Positions 5,412-63,011 of a stretch of 64,000 bases of DNA are shown piece after piece. The number at the start of each line of letters is the position of its first letter. Position 1 is the stretch's first letter. The DNA is from a virus. The stretch lies in the IMG/VR virus record IMGVR_UViG_3300032288_003197, positions 1 to 64,000 of that record; one strand, given 5' to 3'. Under the pieces are notes generated by a model. The model ran no database searches and was not told where the DNA came from. It saw only the letters and a program-made list of their open reading frames with translations. The position numbers and the translations under genes were made by a program.

Positions 5412-5510
5412 GTAGGAGTGGTGGGAATCGAACCCACATTCGCCGCCTTATCTAGACGGTGCTTACGAGGATATAAATCTCGCCCTTAGGCCAATATTAG
5501 CAACACTCCC
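5410..5510 (-). tRNA. Class II tRNA, apparent anticodon TAT (Ile?) inside structured RNA
   Basis: Acceptor GGGAGTG/CACTCCT, T-arm GTGGG-TTCGATT-CCCAC, A73 and encoded CCA are sound. The anticodon arm CGAGA/CCTCG has an A-C mismatch and loop TTTATAT, giving TAT. A long variable arm (CCGTC/GGCGG stem) makes it class II, which is not expected for Ile; a nine-base loop reading TTA is an alternative. Confidence 0.7.
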
Positions 5511-8074: not shown

Positions 8075-8092
8075 CGAAATATTTAGCCAAAG

Positions 8093-8113
8093 GAAAACCC
8101 GCCGAAGCGGGCT
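8093..8113 (-). terminator. Intrinsic terminator after tmRNA
   Basis: CCCGC-TTCG-GCGGG hairpin followed by TTTTCC on the minus strand, about 45 bases after the tmRNA tag stop codon. Confidence 0.8.
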
Positions 8114-8274
8114 CCGAGTTTCTGTTACGAGGTATGTCTTACCCTAGGCTGCGTTTAGGCTGCCAATGCGAACTGTTCGTCGTTTGCGTTTACGTTTTTT
8201 GCTTGATTTACGGTCATCGCCTACCGTGCTGTCCACTCCGTTACTCTTGACCCAATCGATCCTGTGTCAGGCCC
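8096..8274 (-). ncRNA. ssrA: tmRNA, tag-coding piece (probable permuted two-piece tmRNA)
   Basis: A GCA resume codon at 8187 opens the ten-codon tag ANDEQFALAA ending in TAA at 8155, matching the E. coli tag ANDENYALAA. Upstream lies a pseudoknot-1-like stem (8223-8227 with 8210-8214) and a tRNA-like 5' end GGGCCTG at 8274 followed by a CAGGATCGATTGGG D-region like that of known tmRNAs. The transcript ends in a terminator shortly after the tag, leaving no room for a 3' tRNA half in the usual place. tmRNA with SmpB rescues stalled ribosomes and tags the products for proteolysis. The phage copy would keep this running late in infection, and the window also encodes ClpA. Confidence 0.85.
8155..8187 (-). 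other. tmRNA proteolysis tag reading frame
   Basis: Ten codons for ANDEQFALAA plus TAA. The last four residues ALAA are the degron read by ClpXP/ClpAP in bacteria. Confidence 0.9.
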
Positions 8275-8445
8275 ATCAAAAAGATTCTTCCATCTGTCCA
8301 GTGCTTCGTGATAGCTGATCCAGACACATCCTTCGCAACCTCGGCCACAACAAGTAGTTGGCTCTTGTGGTCTAGGGTAAAAATCTTTTTGGTGGACCTG
8401 GGCGGCACTGCCCCGCCGTCTTGAATCCGTTTCTCTTTGCTTCAT
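8221..8445 (-). CDS. Small oxidoreductase-like (Cys-rich) protein overlapping the tmRNA
   Basis: 74 codons. The centre, [18 protein letters not shown] followed by [10 protein letters not shown], matches the short oxidoreductase-like family with its CCGxGCxxCVW signature (human OXLD1 type), a possible metal or redox site. The core falls in the segment between the two tmRNA pieces; both ends of the frame overlap them. ATG 8445 has no ribosome site and lies only about eight bases after the predicted transcription start, so the true start is unclear. The protein match looks genuine but translation is not assured. Confidence 0.55.
8390..8440 (-). ncRNA. ssrA: Candidate tmRNA acceptor piece (upstream, permuted order)
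   Basis: CAGGTCC-A-CCA (8400-8390 on the minus strand) pairs with the 5' GGGCCTG of the coding piece, giving a G3-U70 pair, the alanine identity element of tmRNA. It is preceded by a five-pair GGCGG/CCGCC stem with a seven-base loop, and by GATTCAA, which pairs with TTGGGTC (8255-8249) as helix 2 would. The loop GGCAGTG is not a normal TTCRA T-loop, which lowers confidence. Confidence 0.45.
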
Positions 8446-8460
8446 ACAGCAATAACTTGC

Positions 8461-8489
8461 AGTATACTGTTTTTAGATATTGTCGTCAA
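8461..8489 (-). promoter_or_regulatory. Early promoter TTGACG-N17-TATACT for tmRNA unit
   Basis: Minus-strand hexamers, 17-base spacer, start predicted near 8454. With the terminator at 8093-8113 it defines a unit of about 360 bases, the length of a tmRNA precursor. Confidence 0.7.
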
Positions 8490-8724: not shown

Positions 8725-9378
8725 TTATTTGAGTATTTGTAGATCCTGGTGCTGGGACACGCGGGTAAACTCAATGTTGGGGGGCGTATTCCTACTGATT
8801 TGTATGGCCACACGAACGGACTCGACGTTCTCTACCGCATGCAATATTGCACTGTTGATACACACCCATTTCTCTGCGGGCAAGCAAACTCGATCAATTT
8901 CTTCCAATGTGTCAAAATTCTTTGTGATGAGATTGGGATCAAAAACTGACTTCAAGTCAGGGCGCAAGAGCGGATACCCATGCTGTCTGTACCATGATGT
9001 TTCTACACGACTGCCGCCAGTGTCCAGGATATACATGATAGTGTAGTCCCTACTGATGTCCACGTGCGGGGCAAAGAACGAACTGTGTGCGTCATATACT
9101 GCTACACCACATGGCGCAGGGTCTTGATCAAAATACTGGCGTACCCATGCATCAAACTCTTCGCTGATACTGTACCTATGAGACTTTATTGTCTTGACTT
9201 CCGACCCATCTCGCAGAGTAAAATTTCGATATTCATACTCTGCATAGCCTGGCCGATCAAGCCAATTATTCACCTTGACTTCGTGATTGCCCTTGTTTGT
9301 TTCTAGACTTGCCCAGGCCGCATCCACAATTGTTTGCGGCAAGGGTGGCAAGTCTAAAAATGCATAGGTAAATGTCAC
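8725..9378 (-). CDS. 2-oxoglutarate/Fe(II) oxygenase-like protein
   Basis: 217 residues. FFAPHVDISRDYTIMYILDTGG holds the HxD metal pair, and ILHAVENVESVRVAIQIS holds the second His and the Arg for 2-oxoglutarate. This matches the prolyl 4-hydroxylase-like fold of many phage 2OG oxygenases. Substrate unknown. Its start lies four bases inside the stop region of the TctC gene upstream, suggesting cotranscription. Little sequence likeness to the oxygenase at 4313-5173 outside the motifs, so they are probably separate acquisitions. Confidence 0.7.
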   Translation of the reverse strand: MTFTYAFLDLPPLPQTIVDAAWASLETNKGNHEVKVNNWLDRPGYAEYEYRNFTLRDGSEVKTIKSHRYSISEEFDAWVRQYFDQDPAPCGVAVYDAHSSFFAPHVDISRDYTIMYILDTGGSRVETSWYRQHGYPLLRPDLKSVFDPNLITKNFDTLEEIDRVCLPAEKWVCINSAILHAVENVESVRVAIQISRNTPPNIEFTRVSQHQDLQILK

Positions 9379-10262
9379 TTTTTGGTTTTTTCTGCTATTT
9401 GTTCAAAGATTCGAATTTCTCTGTTGGCATACTGCGCAGATCTCTGTGGTCCATAATTCAACACAGTAAGACCCAGCAAATCTTTGAAACTGGTATTGGT
9501 GGAATCTTGAACCAGTCGTGACATTTCTGTTACAGCAGTACGATCGGTGTCTTGTCTGGCCCAGACTGCGTACCAATTGTTGGTGTAATTTCCACTGAAT
9601 CCCATTTCACTGGCAGTGGGCACATTTGGCAGCTGAGGCAGTCTCCGCTCTCCAAACACCATGACAGGACGAACTTGTCCGTTGTTGAAAGACGGCCCAA
9701 TTCCGGTGTAAGCCAAAACTCCGTATTCAGTATGACCGGGCAACACATCGTTGACCATTGGTGCCAGCCCTTTGTAAGGAATCAAGTTGAGTCGCGTGGG
9801 CCATTTTAGATCATTGAGCCATATTTCTCCTTGATTGGCAACACCCACATTAATGATGTCTTGATTTCGGATCTGTTGTCTGATCTTGGTATCGCTGCCA
9901 GCGGTGAACATCACATATGGACTTTCGCCGATCAATGACACTGGTACAAATTCTCGATAAGTGTTGGTGCCCAGCATTGCCGGACCCACCACAAATCCAG
10001 CCTCGGCAACGATAAATGTGTGATTGTCGTTGGGCCTATTCAAAACATGTGTGGTAGCAACCGCCAGTGCCGCGCCAGGCATGTATTGAACTTCAACTGG
10101 AACTGAAACTTTACCTTGAAAGTCTTTTTGCATGGCTCTTGCAAATTTATCAATAAGTCCACCAGGCGGATACGGAACAATAAGAGTAATGGACTTAGAC
10201 GGCCATGCCAGTGCAGACACTGAGATTAGCATGGCCGAGATAAAGGTCAACAGTTTTTTCAT
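9375..10262 (-). CDS. TctC/Bug-type periplasmic solute-binding protein 1
   Basis: 295 residues from ATG 10262, which has an AGAGGA ribosome site; the longer frame from 10328 lacks one. MKKLLTFISAMLISVSALA is a signal peptide, followed by WPSKSITLIVPYPPGGLIDKFAR, the hallmark N-terminus of Bug (TctC) receptors of tripartite tricarboxylate transporters. Late segments (PNVPTASEMGF) also fit. Known members bind carboxylates or amides in the periplasm and pass them to TctAB membrane partners, which are absent here, so it must use host permeases or act otherwise. Family length is normal. Confidence 0.9.
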   Translation of the reverse strand: MKKLLTFISAMLISVSALAWPSKSITLIVPYPPGGLIDKFARAMQKDFQGKVSVPVEVQYMPGAALAVATTHVLNRPNDNHTFIVAEAGFVVGPAMLGTNTYREFVPVSLIGESPYVMFTAGSDTKIRQQIRNQDIINVGVANQGEIWLNDLKWPTRLNLIPYKGLAPMVNDVLPGHTEYGVLAYTGIGPSFNNGQVRPVMVFGERRLPQLPNVPTASEMGFSGNYTNNWYAVWARQDTDRTAVTEMSRLVQDSTNTSFKDLLGLTVLNYGPQRSAQYANREIRIFEQIAEKTKK

Positions 10263-10287
10263 ATATCCTCTCAAAAAGTAATTGTTG

Positions 10288-10313
10288 AACAAAAGCACTG
10301 CTAGAGTGCTTTT
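10288..10313 (-). terminator. Intrinsic terminator between DctP-like and TctC genes
   Basis: AAAAGCACT, 5-base loop, AGTGCTTTT, then GTT on the minus strand; a CAACG/CGTTG hairpin lies just before it. Confidence 0.65.
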
Positions 10314-10352
10314 GTCCGGTGCTGACAACGGGGACGATTCCCGCGTTGCTGT

Positions 10353-11312
10353 TTATTGATGTTGTTGAATGCTTTCGACCAAACCAGGAGTGAATGTATC
10401 GCGGAATTGATCATACACACCGCTCAGTGCAGCCTTGGCAGCTTCGCGTTGTTCTTGTGTCCACTTCACAATGTTGGCACCTTCTTCTGCAACAAGACGC
10501 TGTTCGGCACGAGCACCGTCACGAATGGTTTCGGCACGCTCTTCGCGACCAGCCAGCACAGCAGCTTGTTTGATCACTGCTTGAACTTCGGGACTCAATG
10601 TATCCCAGAACTTGTCGCCAATGATCATTGATGTAAGGAACAAACTGTGACCAGTGTCAATCACTGACTTGGTAACTTCGTTCTGACGCAGTGGATACAC
10701 ACGTGGGTAGTTGGTTTCACCGCCTTCAGCTTCACCGTCAACCACGACCTGACGCAGGTCTTCTACTTCGGCCACAACAGGCTTCATGCCCAGTGCAGAA
10801 ATAGTTGCTTGTGCAACAGGATTACGGTTTGAACGAACTGGTGTTCCTGCAAGCTCTTCCAATGTGCTGACTCGCTTGTTGGAAATCATTTGGCGGAAGC
10901 CACCTGAGTATGTGAAACTCAAGCCACGCACATTTGACTTGTCTGTGAGCTTGGCAAGCAGTGTTTCACCAACTTTGCCCTCTAGTACACGAGTTGCGTG
11001 ATCGTGGTCTTTGAACAAGAATGGGAGATCAAATACCAAAAAGTCCTGCTCGTACTTCTCAGCAAGCCATGTGGTGTACATTTGACTCATTTCAATTTTG
11101 CCCTGTTCCATGAGGTCCAGTAGATCGTGCTTGGTGACCACAACGCCGTTGTTGTAGCGTTGGCTGTACTCGGTAAGAGTCATGATTTCCACTTCGATTT
11201 TGTGCTCGCTTTGTTGCTCGTTTACACGACGCTCAAAGTCTTCAGCAGCACGAAGGAAAAGATTCAAAGGTTCATGGGCAATGACCCAGCGAATTTTGGT
11301 AGTGTTACTCAT
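10353..11312 (-). CDS. DctP-like TRAP solute-binding protein without signal peptide
   Basis: 319 residues from ATG 11312 (MSNTTKIRWVIAHEP). The body follows the DctP family: FDLPFLFKDHDHATRVLEGKVGE, then GFRQMISNKRVSTLEELAGTPVRS with the substrate-binding Arg region, then GGETN YP..., and SPEVQAVIKQAAVLAG. Normal DctP receptors are exported; here the protein begins directly at the first beta strand, so it appears cytoplasmic unless a start upstream is used. Even the longest frame (11381) has no hydrophobic leader. Flanked by two TctC genes that do have signals. No DctQM permease genes. Confidence 0.85.
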   Translation of the reverse strand: MSNTTKIRWVIAHEPLNLFLRAAEDFERRVNEQQSEHKIEVEIMTLTEYSQRYNNGVVVTKHDLLDLMEQGKIEMSQMYTTWLAEKYEQDFLVFDLPFLFKDHDHATRVLEGKVGETLLAKLTDKSNVRGLSFTYSGGFRQMISNKRVSTLEELAGTPVRSNRNPVAQATISALGMKPVVAEVEDLRQVVVDGEAEGGETNYPRVYPLRQNEVTKSVIDTGHSLFLTSMIIGDKFWDTLSPEVQAVIKQAAVLAGREERAETIRDGARAEQRLVAEEGANIVKWTQEQREAAKAALSGVYDQFRDTFTPGLVESIQQHQ

Positions 11313-11455
11313 TTTTATATCCAGATTAGGTAGTTTAAATGTGCTTGCGAGGTTGCTCGCTACGGTTGGCGTTCTAGGCATAACATGCTAGTAAAGGAGT
11401 CCATACTCCAGGCGTCTTTGACCCGACGTCGACCACTTGATCGGCGCTGCCATGT
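11313..11455 (-). other. Intergenic region with hairpins
   Basis: No gene. On the minus strand a GGAGT-ATGG-ACTCC hairpin followed by TTTACT may weakly terminate the TctC 2 message; a GCGAG/CTCGC hairpin is closer to the DctP-like start. Confidence 0.4.
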
Positions 11456-12355
11456 TTATTTAGTCAGAGACACGCCTTGACTCAAACGTTTCCATAGTGC
11501 CACCTGTGAATCAAACCAAATCTGTGTGGCCGTGGTGTTGAGGTTGCTGGGATCACAGTAGTCCACAGCATAGGCACGCTGCACTGCATCTGTTCGGCCG
11601 GCTTGCAGTACCAAACTTCGCAGTTCTTGGTACTGTGCTTCGGGCATGGATTTTGGCACTTGCAAACTGTGCATGTTAACCACCTCGCCCACTCCAGCAA
11701 AGCCCTGACTTTCCAAGGTGGCAATGCCACGCACTGTTTTCTTGCCTGAAATGCCCAGGGCGTTGAGGTCACCCTTGTCCAAGAATCCTTCAACTTCGCC
11801 CAAGAATGCCACGCTGAGATCAATGTTGCCCGAGATAGCATCAATACTGGCTTCGCGTGTGCCTTTGTAGGGCACCGGGGTGGCGTTGGGATAGCGTTTG
11901 ACAATTTCCATGGCCATGAGGTGTGAAGTGGCGCCAAGGCCAGAAATGCCAATGCTGATCTTTTGATTGCGGTCAATTTCACGCCAACTACGATACTTCT
12001 TGCTCACAATCAACATGGGTGCTGCACACTGAGTCATCAGCGGACGGAAGTCACTGACTCGATGACTCTCATCGGGATAAAAGTTAGGGCGCACAAAAAA
12101 AGCTGTACTCGCGGCCAGCACAGCGTTTGGTGTAGCTGCCACATGTTTGGCACCAATGGTTGCACCGGCACCGGGCTTGTTCTCCAAGATAAAGTTGTAT
12201 TTCTTTTGACCAGCGTTGAGCTCTTCTACCAAGCTGCGACTGTACTGTGCCTGTGTATCGCCCATGCCAAACGGCCAAACAATAGAAATAGTTTGTTGTG
12301 CTTGTGCAGCAAAATATGTCAGAGCCGCTGCTGCAGAAATTAGAAGTTTTTTCAT
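11456..12355 (-). CDS. TctC/Bug-type periplasmic solute-binding protein 2
   Basis: 299 residues. MKKLLISAAAALTYFAAQAQ is a signal peptide; then ISIVWPFGMGDTQAQYSRSLVEELN, a diverged version of the Bug motif, then NKPGAGATIGAKHVA (typical of TctC), and GISGLGATSHLMAMEI. Start overlaps the stop of the PP-loop gene as ATGA, so it is made with that enzyme. The binding-loop sequence differs from receptor 1, suggesting another ligand. No membrane partners nearby. Confidence 0.88.
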   Translation of the reverse strand: MKKLLISAAAALTYFAAQAQQTISIVWPFGMGDTQAQYSRSLVEELNAGQKKYNFILENKPGAGATIGAKHVAATPNAVLAASTAFFVRPNFYPDESHRVSDFRPLMTQCAAPMLIVSKKYRSWREIDRNQKISIGISGLGATSHLMAMEIVKRYPNATPVPYKGTREASIDAISGNIDLSVAFLGEVEGFLDKGDLNALGISGKKTVRGIATLESQGFAGVGEVVNMHSLQVPKSMPEAQYQELRSLVLQAGRTDAVQRAYAVDYCDPSNLNTTATQIWFDSQVALWKRLSQGVSLTK

Positions 12356-60091: not shown

Positions 60092-60751
60092 TTATTTAGC
60101 ACGGCCCACTATTGGCAGGGTCTTTCTTACTACCCCGGGCACAACCATGCTGATCAATAGATCTGCGTTGGGCTCGTTGTGATCTACAAAGTTGTTAGAA
60201 CCCAAATAAATGCGCTTGCTGTTTACAAATCTTTCAAACCCCGGACTCAATCTGAATTGATCAGATCTTGTAGAAAAGTATTTGCGCAGTGATTCGATTT
60301 CATCTTGACTGATCCAGCGTTCTCGAAAGTAGGTTCTGAAACAGTGTTGAGGATCAACCAACGTGACAGCATTGGGCATGAGAGTCAGTGAAGCTTGATC
60401 AATTTTTTTGATTTTTCCAGTGGGCATGGACTCTAGATCTTGAAAATCTTCCGGGTGATTGGTATACAACCACATGCAGTGCCCCGAAACTGTTTTCTTA
60501 AATGGTCGGGTGCGAGACTGTAAAAAGTCACATACCCGGTGCAAAATGTCCTGTGTTGTCTGATCAATGTGTGAAGGGGCCGCCAGGTGGCGGCTATGCC
60601 AACTGTTTCTATAACGTATGGCTGTGTTGATTTTTGCATGATCTAATTCACGCAAAAAACTAGCATGCGGCAAATCAAACTGAACTGCATACTGCCACTG
60701 GCCAAAGTACAATTCACTGCGGGCCACCTCACGGATCTTGGAATCAAACAT
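60092..60751 (-). CDS. Unknown phage protein (219 aa)
   Basis: MFDSKIREVARSELYFGQWQYAV..., basic and aromatic. MPTGKIKKIDQASLTLMPNAV and YLGSNNFVDHNEPNADLLISMVVPG are its best-ordered parts. Start overlaps the ClpA stop by 8 bases. No motif identified. Confidence 0.65.
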   Translation of the reverse strand: MFDSKIREVARSELYFGQWQYAVQFDLPHASFLRELDHAKINTAIRYRNSWHSRHLAAPSHIDQTTQDILHRVCDFLQSRTRPFKKTVSGHCMWLYTNHPEDFQDLESMPTGKIKKIDQASLTLMPNAVTLVDPQHCFRTYFRERWISQDEIESLRKYFSTRSDQFRLSPGFERFVNSKRIYLGSNNFVDHNEPNADLLISMVVPGVVRKTLPIVGRAK

Positions 60752-63011
60752 CCGCTACCTTTATGATACCATTCTCTGAGACACCAATGTTGGATCTAGG
60801 AACCACATCAAATTCAACTTGGTCATCCAGCATGTTCACTGTGATGTCACAATCAGTGAGTCGATCAAACAAGATCTTCTTTGACAGCGGCACACGAATC
60901 AGCTGGTCGATTTTGCGCGACAGCGGTCTTGCACCCATTTTGGGATCGTAGCCTCGGTCGGCCAGCATGTCCACAACTGCTTCACTCAAGTTGAGTCGAA
61001 TGCCTTTGGCACTCAAGCTGGTCTTGAGTTCGTCCACGAATTTAACAACAACTTTCTTGATGGCCAAAGTATCCAACTTGTTGAACTTGACAATTTGATC
61101 AATACGATTGCGCAGTTCAGGTTTGAAGAACTCCTTGACTGCTTTGTCATCTTCGCCGGTCTTTTCAAAGTTGCCAAAGCCAATGTTGTTGGCTTCACTG
61201 TCTCGTGCACCTAGATTTGACGTCATAATGATGATGCAGTTTTTGCAGTTGGCTTTTTTGCCATTGCTGCTGGTGATAACACCTTCGTCCAACATCTGCA
61301 GCAGGATATTGGTGACATCGGGGTGTGCTTTTTCAATCTCATCAAACAAGATAACACTGAACGGATTTTTAGTAAGATCAGAGATCAGTTTGCCACCGCC
61401 TACGTTGCCATCCTCAAAGCCCACATAGCCCGGAGGAGCACCAATCAAACTACTCACTGAATGACGCTCTTGATATTCACTCATGTCATATTTGAGCAGC
61501 TTCATATCCAAGTTGTCACTCAGCAGTCGTGCCAGTTCAGTTTTACCTGTACCGGTTGGACCCAAGAACAAGAAGCTGGCCATGGGCCGTTTGTCATTGG
61601 CAATGCCGGCAAAGTTGATGTACACCCGCTCCAGCACACTATCCACTGCTGAGTCTTGTCCGTACAACTTCTGCTTGATGTTGCCTTCCAGCTCCATGAT
61701 CTTGGCACTACGCTCGTTTTGCAGTTTGTCTGTGGGCACGCCTGTCACACGAGTCAGCTGTTCTTCGATCATGCTTTTGGTAACTGTTACCAAGCCAGCA
61801 TCTTTCACACGCTCACGAGCACAGGCTGCATCAATCAAGTCAATGCTTTTGTCAGGATTCTTTTTATCGTGGATATAGCGATTTGCAAGTTCCACGGCAC
61901 TGGTGATCGCCTCGGTTTCAATGAGTACATTATGAAACTGTTCGAGCCTAGGTGATAGGCCAATGAGGATTTGTTCAGTGGTCGACGCATCCGGTTCATC
62001 AATCGCCAAGCGATAGAAACGCCGCATGAGTGCGCGATCTTTCTCAAAACTTTCATAGAATTCTTCCCAGGTGGTGCTGGCCACAACTTTAAGACTGCCC
62101 TTGGTGATAGCTGGTTTCAACATGTTGGCAAAGTCCAGGCTGCTGTTGCTGCCTGCACCAGCACCCTTCATGGTGTGTGCTTCGTCCACAAACAAGATAC
62201 AGTTCCGCTTGGCTTCCAGTGCAGCAATCACTGCCTTGAACTTTTCTTCAAATTCGCCGCGGTACTTGCTTCCTGCCAACAGCGAGCCAATTTCCAAGCT
62301 CCATACTTCGTGTCCCTTTAAGAATTCGGGCACACGGTCAGCGGCAATCTCCTGCGCCAAGCCGTCAATGATGGCAGTTTTGCCTACACCAGGATCGCCT
62401 ACCATGAGCACGTTGGCCTTGAAACGTCGAGCCAGCACAGTGATCATTTCTTCCAGTTCTTTGCTGCGACCAATTAGCGGCTCCAGTTGATTTTTGTTGG
62501 CTCGGGCAGTGAGATTTTCACAGTATTCATTCAAGATGTCGTCGGCTTGATCGGTGCTCATACCAGTGTCGGCAGCCGAAGTTTTGTAGGCCTTTTGCCA
62601 GTGATCCACAAACTCCTGTTTCTTCACACCGTATTTCAGCAAGAAGTAGTGTGCATGGCTGTTGGTTTCGGCCATGATTGACAGATACATGTCTATGGTT
62701 GTGACCAGTCTGCGGCCGGTAAACATCACCTGCACATGCACACGATTGAAAATGCGCTCCAAGGCCACAGTGCGTCGTGGTTGGGCGTCGGTGCTGTTGG
62801 TCACAAGATGTACTTGACTCAACAAATACTGCTGGATCTCGTTTTCCATTTGGTCAACTTCTACACCAAAAGCATCCAGGCATTTTCTAAATGCTGGATA
62901 ACGGATCATGCTCAACAGCAGGTGTTCAGTGGTGACATACTCGTGTTTGAGATTTTGGGCCAGTTTGACTGCGTTGTCAACAATGTGTTTGATTTCGGGA
63001 TTTTCTTGCAT
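60744..63011 (-). CDS. clpA: ClpA-type AAA+ unfoldase
   Basis: 755 residues, as E. coli ClpA (758). N-domain residues 1-140 (TTEHLLLSMI), Walker A1 GDPGVGKT (205-212) with LFVDEAHT, sensor region LKVVASTTWEEF, then a second module GPTGTGKTELARLL, SLIGAPPGYVGFEDG and LFDEIEKAHPDV. No ClpB middle coiled coil. NNIGFGNFEK near residue 610 looks like the IGL/F ClpP-docking loop, so it could feed the host ClpP. ClpA pulls proteins through and the ALAA tag is a known ClpAP substrate, suggesting a link with the phage tmRNA. Promoter TTGCTT-N17-TATAAT upstream. Confidence 0.92.
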   Translation of the reverse strand: MQENPEIKHIVDNAVKLAQNLKHEYVTTEHLLLSMIRYPAFRKCLDAFGVEVDQMENEIQQYLLSQVHLVTNSTDAQPRRTVALERIFNRVHVQVMFTGRRLVTTIDMYLSIMAETNSHAHYFLLKYGVKKQEFVDHWQKAYKTSAADTGMSTDQADDILNEYCENLTARANKNQLEPLIGRSKELEEMITVLARRFKANVLMVGDPGVGKTAIIDGLAQEIAADRVPEFLKGHEVWSLEIGSLLAGSKYRGEFEEKFKAVIAALEAKRNCILFVDEAHTMKGAGAGSNSSLDFANMLKPAITKGSLKVVASTTWEEFYESFEKDRALMRRFYRLAIDEPDASTTEQILIGLSPRLEQFHNVLIETEAITSAVELANRYIHDKKNPDKSIDLIDAACARERVKDAGLVTVTKSMIEEQLTRVTGVPTDKLQNERSAKIMELEGNIKQKLYGQDSAVDSVLERVYINFAGIANDKRPMASFLFLGPTGTGKTELARLLSDNLDMKLLKYDMSEYQERHSVSSLIGAPPGYVGFEDGNVGGGKLISDLTKNPFSVILFDEIEKAHPDVTNILLQMLDEGVITSSNGKKANCKNCIIIMTSNLGARDSEANNIGFGNFEKTGEDDKAVKEFFKPELRNRIDQIVKFNKLDTLAIKKVVVKFVDELKTSLSAKGIRLNLSEAVVDMLADRGYDPKMGARPLSRKIDQLIRVPLSKKILFDRLTDCDITVNMLDDQVEFDVVPRSNIGVSENGIIKVADV

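Follow-up and report, generated by a model that had tools for sequence, protein, structure and literature searches.

The minus strand of positions 8092-8489 carries a permuted (two-piece) tmRNA gene of a phage. The window, that is, the whole stretch analysed here, comprises bases 1-64000 of an IMG/VR virus record of 72,339 bases, which may itself be a fragment. We assigned the record to a phage because it contains members of the phage DNA polymerase family phrog_262 and of the phage ATP-dependent protease family phrog_4871 (60744-63011, minus strand, E=1e-239); the protease is a possible partner for the degradation of tmRNA-tagged proteins. The best named relatives of a 523-aa protein were found in PA5oct-like jumbo Pseudomonas phages (35.7% identity), and the virus carrying the gene is probably a jumbo-type phage. 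Beside the tmRNA gene lies a run of three genes encoding periplasmic solute-binding proteins, TctC, DctP and TctC (9375-12355, minus strand; Pfam E values 6.5e-14, 6e-47 and 1.9e-15), which are unusual cargo for a phage. ARAGORN listed 22 tRNA genes and missed an extra tRNA-like gene at 5413-5510 (minus strand), which was matched by RF00005 with 41 bits and, at 98 nt, is unusually long for a tRNA.

The 3' half of the tmRNA gene, with an encoded CCA, precedes the 5' half; an intervening sequence (IVS) lies between them, and the acceptor strands pair across it (Table 1). The first-pass annotation had read a permuted tmRNA from a TTGACG-N17-TATACT promoter, a CAGGTCC-A-CCA end that pairs with GGGCCTG and includes a G3-U70 wobble, a 5-pair stem with a 7-base loop beside it, a GATTCAA/TTGGGTC helix 2, a GCA-started frame for ANDEQFALAA followed by TAA, and a terminator after the tag. 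All of these elements were confirmed on the minus strand, and the stem beside the acceptor proved to be the T-stem. The tag has a hydrophobic degron end, and G3-U70 provides the alanine identity. In many relatives (loci L015, L024, L062, L099 and L008), the 3' piece at the start of the tmRNA is immediately preceded by TAAATA, which resembles a T4-type late promoter; the window has its sigma70-like promoter there.

Table 1. Features of the permuted tmRNA gene in the window, and GOLLD RNAs beside related genes.
Feature	Positions	Strand	Details or basis
Sigma70-like promoter	8461-8489	-	-35 TTGACG 8484-8489, 17-nt spacer, -10 TATACT 8461-8466; sequence
tRNA-like 3' piece, first in gene	8390-8451	-	encoded CCA end 8390-8392; RF04321 alignment
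74-codon open frame across 3' piece, IVS and 5' piece	8221-8445	-	stop TAG 8221-8223
Helix 2, 3' strand GATTCAA	8421-8427	-	partner 8249-8255; compensatory changes in relatives
T-arm GGCGG-GGCAGTG-CCGCC	8401-8417	-	5-bp stem; 7-base loop 8406-8412 with G54 G55 C56 A57 G58
Acceptor 3' strand CAGGTCC and A73	8393-8400	-	U70 at 8396
IVS, 115 nt, predicted protein-coding	8275-8389	-	ends AAAAGATT/AATCTTTT pair, lengthening the acceptor helix
Oxidored-like domain PF09791, residues 24-54, wholly within IVS	8284-8376	-	E=3.3e-12; 46.4 bits, curated cut-off 24
Acceptor 5' strand GGGCCTG, opens mRNA-like piece	8268-8274	-	G3 at 8272
D-loop ACACAGGATCGA, then helix 2 5' strand TTGGGTC	8249-8267	-	A18 (8263), G19 (8262); helix 2 strand 8249-8255
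Tag frame GCA AAC GAC GAA CAG TTC GCA TTG GCA GCC TAA	8155-8187	-	ANDEQFALAA and stop
Intrinsic terminator AGCCCGC-TTCG-GCGGG-TTTT	8094-8113	-	sequence; end of RF01850 match
GOLLD RNA	L446 770-1233; L447 613-1080; L449 711-1144; L450 706-1139		

Covariance models supported the permuted reading. Using cmscan, RF01850 (beta_tmRNA) matched 8092-8489 with 109.6 bits (E=7.6e-34; cut-off 84), and RF04321 (tmRNA_permuted) matched 8155-8451 with 124.2 bits (cut-off 47). The alpha model RF01849 gave the same RNA 72.7 bits. ARAGORN, with permuted genes included in its search, did not recover the window gene; it found other loci with the same T-loop.

Viral contigs were then scanned with a degenerate pattern for the tag alone, and the hits with at least 600 nt upstream were used (108 among the matches listed). 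A full permuted tRNA-like domain, with the acceptor paired at 7/7, the T-stem at 5/5, C56 and usually ACCA, was present in 102 of these 108 tag-picked loci among the matches listed; that is, the pairing was kept along with the tag. Dinucleotide shuffles of the same upstream sequences gave no complete domain in 540 trials. Across the 102 loci among the matches listed, the acceptor occurred in 11 sequence combinations and the T-stem in 13, and helix 2 was paired at 7/7 in one fixed register in 94 of the 102. The helix 2 types differ widely (TTGGGTC/GATTCAA, CAGGGCA/TGTTCTG and CATGGTG/CACTGTG). The pairing is thus conserved and compensated, and the permuted gene is therefore genuine. An alternative reading, in which the locus is a pseudogene or tRNA-like pieces came together by chance, would agree with the failure of ARAGORN and with a T-loop that departs from the tRNA rule. 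However, the Rfam scores lie far over their cut-offs, the helices are compensated and the tertiary positions are coupled, as described below; this reading is refuted by conservation, and we give it almost no weight.

Phage permuted tmRNAs as such are already known. The first-pass annotation had considered a phage copy to be new, which was wrong: a published survey counted 53 two-piece tmRNA structures among phage genomes, of which 50 were marine or aquatic, and the cultured methylophage Melnitz has one (PMC9004378). The Melnitz tmRNA resembles that of the window in being phage-borne and permuted, with a frame in the IVS; it differs in being alpha-type and in its tag ANDNYVPVDYALAA and a glutamine riboswitch (PMC9004378). 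The betaproteobacterial two-piece tmRNA (RF01850, RF04321) shares with the window the gene order, the G3-U70 acceptor, helix 2, the tag and the terminator. In contrast, its IVS is 24-42 nt in three cellular examples and that of the window is 115 nt and predicted to be coding, and the elbow formed by the T-loop and D-loop in the window is of the alphaproteobacterial type. The alphaproteobacterial tmRNA (RF01849) is like the window in its T-loop GGCRGTA and D-loop A18 G19, and unlike it in body, tag and covariance score.

The T-loop GGCAGTG had been called odd. Its sequence was read correctly, and the oddity fell away, since the loop belongs to a known alphaproteobacterial T-loop class. The window has G54 G55 C56 R57 G58 together with A18 G19, which is the alphaproteobacterial elbow type and no defect; the RF01850-type elbow, a TTCRA T-loop with G18 G19 in the D-loop, is absent. 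The G54 G55 G58 + A18 state is the alphaproteobacterial norm, as the RF01849 consensus is GGCgGUA with AAAuAGGAUCGAC. In Pseudomonadota genomes we found the T-loops GGCGGTA and GGCAGTA, and also TGCGATT, with A18 in each case where the domain was readable. According to a 2005 study, Caulobacter has G in place of U55, and the Reclinomonas mitochondrion has GG (PMC1168896). The occurrence of this loop class in the Rfam alpha_tmRNA consensus and in Pseudomonadota genomes rules out the idea that the T-loop is degenerate or phage-only.

Three elbow states were observed in viral permuted tmRNAs: T54 T55 A58 with G18, T54 G55 A58 with A18, and G54 G55 G58 with A18. The coupling between positions 55 and 18 was perfect in the tag-selected set among the matches listed, with G55 accompanied by A18 in 52/52 and T55 by G18 in 42/42 scorable cases (8 were unscorable). 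In the wider viral set, L125 was an exception; L324 was also off, its halves being probably mispaired by the finder. On a tree built without the loop columns, about 23 state changes were counted. For supported independent (starred-branch) pairs, 55 switched together with 18 in 11/11 in most pairings, nearly all together, and 54 switched together with 58 in 10/10. One one-piece viral tmRNA also has a GGCAGAA/A18 elbow; therefore, this type of elbow is not confined to permuted tmRNAs.

The window RNA ranks as beta-type, with 109.6 bits compared with 72.7 for the alpha model, so that an alpha-type elbow is here joined to a beta-type body. Its elbow segments are common to L015, L018 and L021, and its body is common to L024, L062 and L025, which have other elbows. 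A single recombination tract that brought in the elbow and the IVS is disfavoured, because the IVS gene of the window matches L014-type loci and the elbow matches those of the L015, L018 and L021 type. Readable Burkholderiales tmRNAs, whether one-piece or permuted, had TTCRA with G18, as did all 3 cellular beta-type permuted genes found. A pattern for odd T-loops gave 20 matches in Burkholderiales, none with a T-stem. A control pattern matched 97/399 genomes, but it also caught tRNAs, and only 3/120 Burkholderiales had a beta-type permuted gene over the cut-off; therefore, the cellular comparison is small. Blast of the window tmRNA against named phages returned terminators and short pieces only. 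A marine relative led to roseophages bearing the same elbow. Four roseophages (DSS3_MAL1, MD18, DSS3P8 and vB_RpoS-V10), all of which have the alpha-type elbow, carry a GOLLD RNA immediately upstream of their permuted tmRNA.

An altered elbow could change the contacts of SmpB, EF-Tu or modification enzymes, and no SmpB gene was found in the record (partial, 72,339 bases). The RNA might then be a decoy or inhibitor of host trans-translation and not a working tmRNA, like the form of phage DS6A that consists of the tRNA-like domain only and inhibits tmRNA (PMC11915505). We consider this very improbable. The tag is complete and ends in ALAA; ANDEQFALAA was kept in 101/212 loci, many of them selected by that tag, and most of the others had other ALAA-type tags. 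G3-U70 was present in 211/212 relatives, and alphaproteobacterial tmRNAs normally have this same elbow.

The IVS of the window contributes 38 residues to an open frame that also runs through both flanking pieces, and these residues are Oxidored-like. The sole canonical in-frame start is an ATG at 8443-8445, within the tmRNA 3' piece and without a Shine-Dalgarno (SD) site; the IVS itself has no canonical start and no SD. The same frame was found in the IVS of L014, L040, L064, L111, L121 and L309 and, more distantly, of L300; the frame is thus kept in eight loci. In all loci with the Oxidored-like IVS frame, the only canonical in-frame start is the ATG in the 3' piece, again without an SD, and the frame ends in the 5' piece. 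Between the window and L014, 11 synonymous and 3 non-synonymous differences were counted over 40 codons (pS 0.49, pN 0.03). The nested peptide had no match in named phages. We conclude that the IVS of the window is protein-coding, with a conserved Oxidored-like domain under strong purifying selection in the predicted protein.

It is unlikely that this is an ordinary phage permuted tmRNA whose IVS frame is a non-functional leftover. The absence of an own start and SD would fit such a leftover, a 115-nt stop-free frame arose in 8% of shuffles, and genes of the nested kind also occur outside the tmRNA in other phages, so that insertions could decay in the IVS. However, the six close relatives differ from the window by 10-11 synonymous and 3-4.5 non-synonymous changes over the 40 codons, the frame is retained across loci, and the PF09791 match exceeds its curated cut-off.

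Coding-like IVSs were present in 42 of the 102 tag-selected viral tmRNAs among the matches listed. The other 60/102 among the matches listed had no recognisable IVS gene; therefore, tmRNA function does not depend on a nested gene. There were 18 nonredundant IVSs with a length of 150 nt or more. In 16 of them, an open frame covered at least 80% of the IVS (shuffles predict 0.19), and 12 carried an SD-like site within their first 14 nt, compared with 0.89 expected. The open-frame and SD signal was much weaker in shorter IVSs. A second scan used the pattern CCA followed by TAAGGA and ATG, which selects only the start, and yielded 79 permuted tmRNA loci in 51 nonredundant families. In this SD+ATG set, the frame met no stop before the final 14 nt of the IVS in 25/26 families of at least 150 nt (0.44 expected) and in 8/8 families of 100-150 nt (0.67 expected), and in 42/79 loci the stop was the TGA of a conserved end, TGAT|GGG. 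The window frame departs from this layout of an own SD, a start after CCA and a stop at the IVS end, in that it begins upstream and ends downstream of the IVS. Within twelve nested families, pN/pS was below 1 in 33/33 comparisons (pooled 0.28); a family of 24-residue membrane peptides had a pS of 0.48 and a pN of 0.10. The recognised nested domains were thioredoxin (4e-21), DUF2061 (3.5e-20), CxxCxxCC (1e-5), PGDYG (3e-6) and a sub-threshold HNH. Two other nested peptides had no match in named phages.

Predicted coding IVSs are a general, recurrent feature of permuted tmRNAs in related viruses, and this is the new point. The nested-gene habit looks phage-specific within the sample examined, because the IVSs of readable cellular permuted tmRNAs (23-55 nt) are too short for nested genes and the SD+ATG nested pattern gave 3 matches in 398 Pseudomonadota genomes, none of them a tmRNA. 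Our search of the open-access literature turned up no account of IVS genes in permuted tmRNAs; most subscription papers lie outside that literature, and priority is uncertain. For Melnitz and the other aquatic phage two-piece tmRNAs, the accessible part of the survey describes no gene in the IVS (PMC9004378). The IVS contents mentioned in a 2025 database paper are only one tRNA-Ala and one repeat (PMC11915505). The closest parallel is offered by tmRNA genes with group I introns, some of which carry homing endonuclease genes (PMC11915505), the shared trait being a protein gene nested in a tmRNA gene. There, a self-splicing intron lies in the T-loop of a one-piece gene, whereas the phage loci use the spacer of a permuted gene, presumably with tRNA-type processing, and their IVS proteins are varied and mostly non-homing.

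For approximately ten nested families, other phages have a homologue on the same strand immediately before the tmRNA 3' piece; no homologue was found within 500 nt downstream of a tmRNA. The nested L613 protein and its upstream counterpart in L309 share 68% identity, and the nested family of L541 has upstream counterparts in L125, L160, L343 and L592. A 62-aa family nested in six loci is 51-70% identical to gene 85 of Melnitz (L620, MZ577097), which lies at 1201-1383, just upstream of SsrA. The Melnitz IVS (1486-1627, 142 nt) has a frame inside the annotated SsrA that is preceded by an SD, GGAG, and starts with ATG. It seems that genes flanking the tmRNA relocate to the spacer, or that spacer genes relocate to the flank.

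In the loci with a nested SD and ATG, the initial ten IVS bases, including the SD, pair with the bases just before TGAT (TAAGGACACT/AGTGTCTTTA, TAAGGACATT/AATGTCTTTA), extending the acceptor helix. Helix positions 7-10, which lie outside the shared TAAGGA, covary: 3.73 of 4 were paired, compared with 2.72 with exchanged partners, and 0/1000 shuffles were as high. In the precursor, the mean unpaired probability of the SD was 0.04; it rose to 0.52 when the 3' arm was missing. The IVS ends of the window also pair within the fold (z=-3.25), but without an SD site.

Taken jointly, the locus is very probably best explained as a phage permuted tmRNA with an alpha-type elbow on a beta-type RNA, in which the IVS doubles as a coding region. 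A single transcript of approximately 360 nt would contain the tRNA-like 3' piece, the IVS and the mRNA-like 5' piece with the tag, and its acceptor stem would run on into a helix made by both IVS ends. Cuts at the CCA end and before G1, by host RNase P and 3'-processing enzymes, would free the IVS and leave a mature two-piece tmRNA held together by the acceptor and helix 2. This RNA would be charged with alanine via G3-U70 and, with host SmpB as its partner, would tag stalled proteins with ANDEQFALAA; its elbow follows the alphaproteobacterial design (G54/G58, G55/A18), and the rest of the RNA is of betaproteobacterial type.

In many related phages, the IVS would be a complete gene, with its SD buried in the end-helix and frequently a TGA stop among the final IVS bases. 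At any one time, a single precursor may then either have its nested gene translated or fold or mature as a tmRNA, but not both. The nested gene could be translated as long as the 3' arm is still to be synthesised or as long as a ribosome holds the helix open, and folding of the pre-tmRNA would then shut translation off. We tentatively propose that the spacer of phage permuted tmRNAs serves small protein genes as a general site of insertion, with the ribosome-binding site sealed by the acceptor-extending helix, so that a precursor yields the nested protein or the rescue RNA at a time; the window protein would start inside the tRNA-like half, which would be both RNA and coding. We rate this proposal at slightly less than an even chance.

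Permuted tmRNA genes have been known since 2000, and to our knowledge their spacer has so far been treated as discarded sequence. The permuted tmRNA of the window was correctly recognised and is of a known kind; follow-up should be directed at the spacer genes. The elbow results document a set of naturally occurring, coupled exchanges at tertiary positions (18-55, 54-58) of functional tRNA-like molecules. Diverse conserved proteins, including thioredoxin, DUF2061 and zinc- or iron-binding types, are predicted in the spacers of approximately 40% of the tag-selected viral set among the matches listed. These spacer proteins would give the permutation a possible use in phages, in which a rescue RNA may be linked to protein expression on one precursor.
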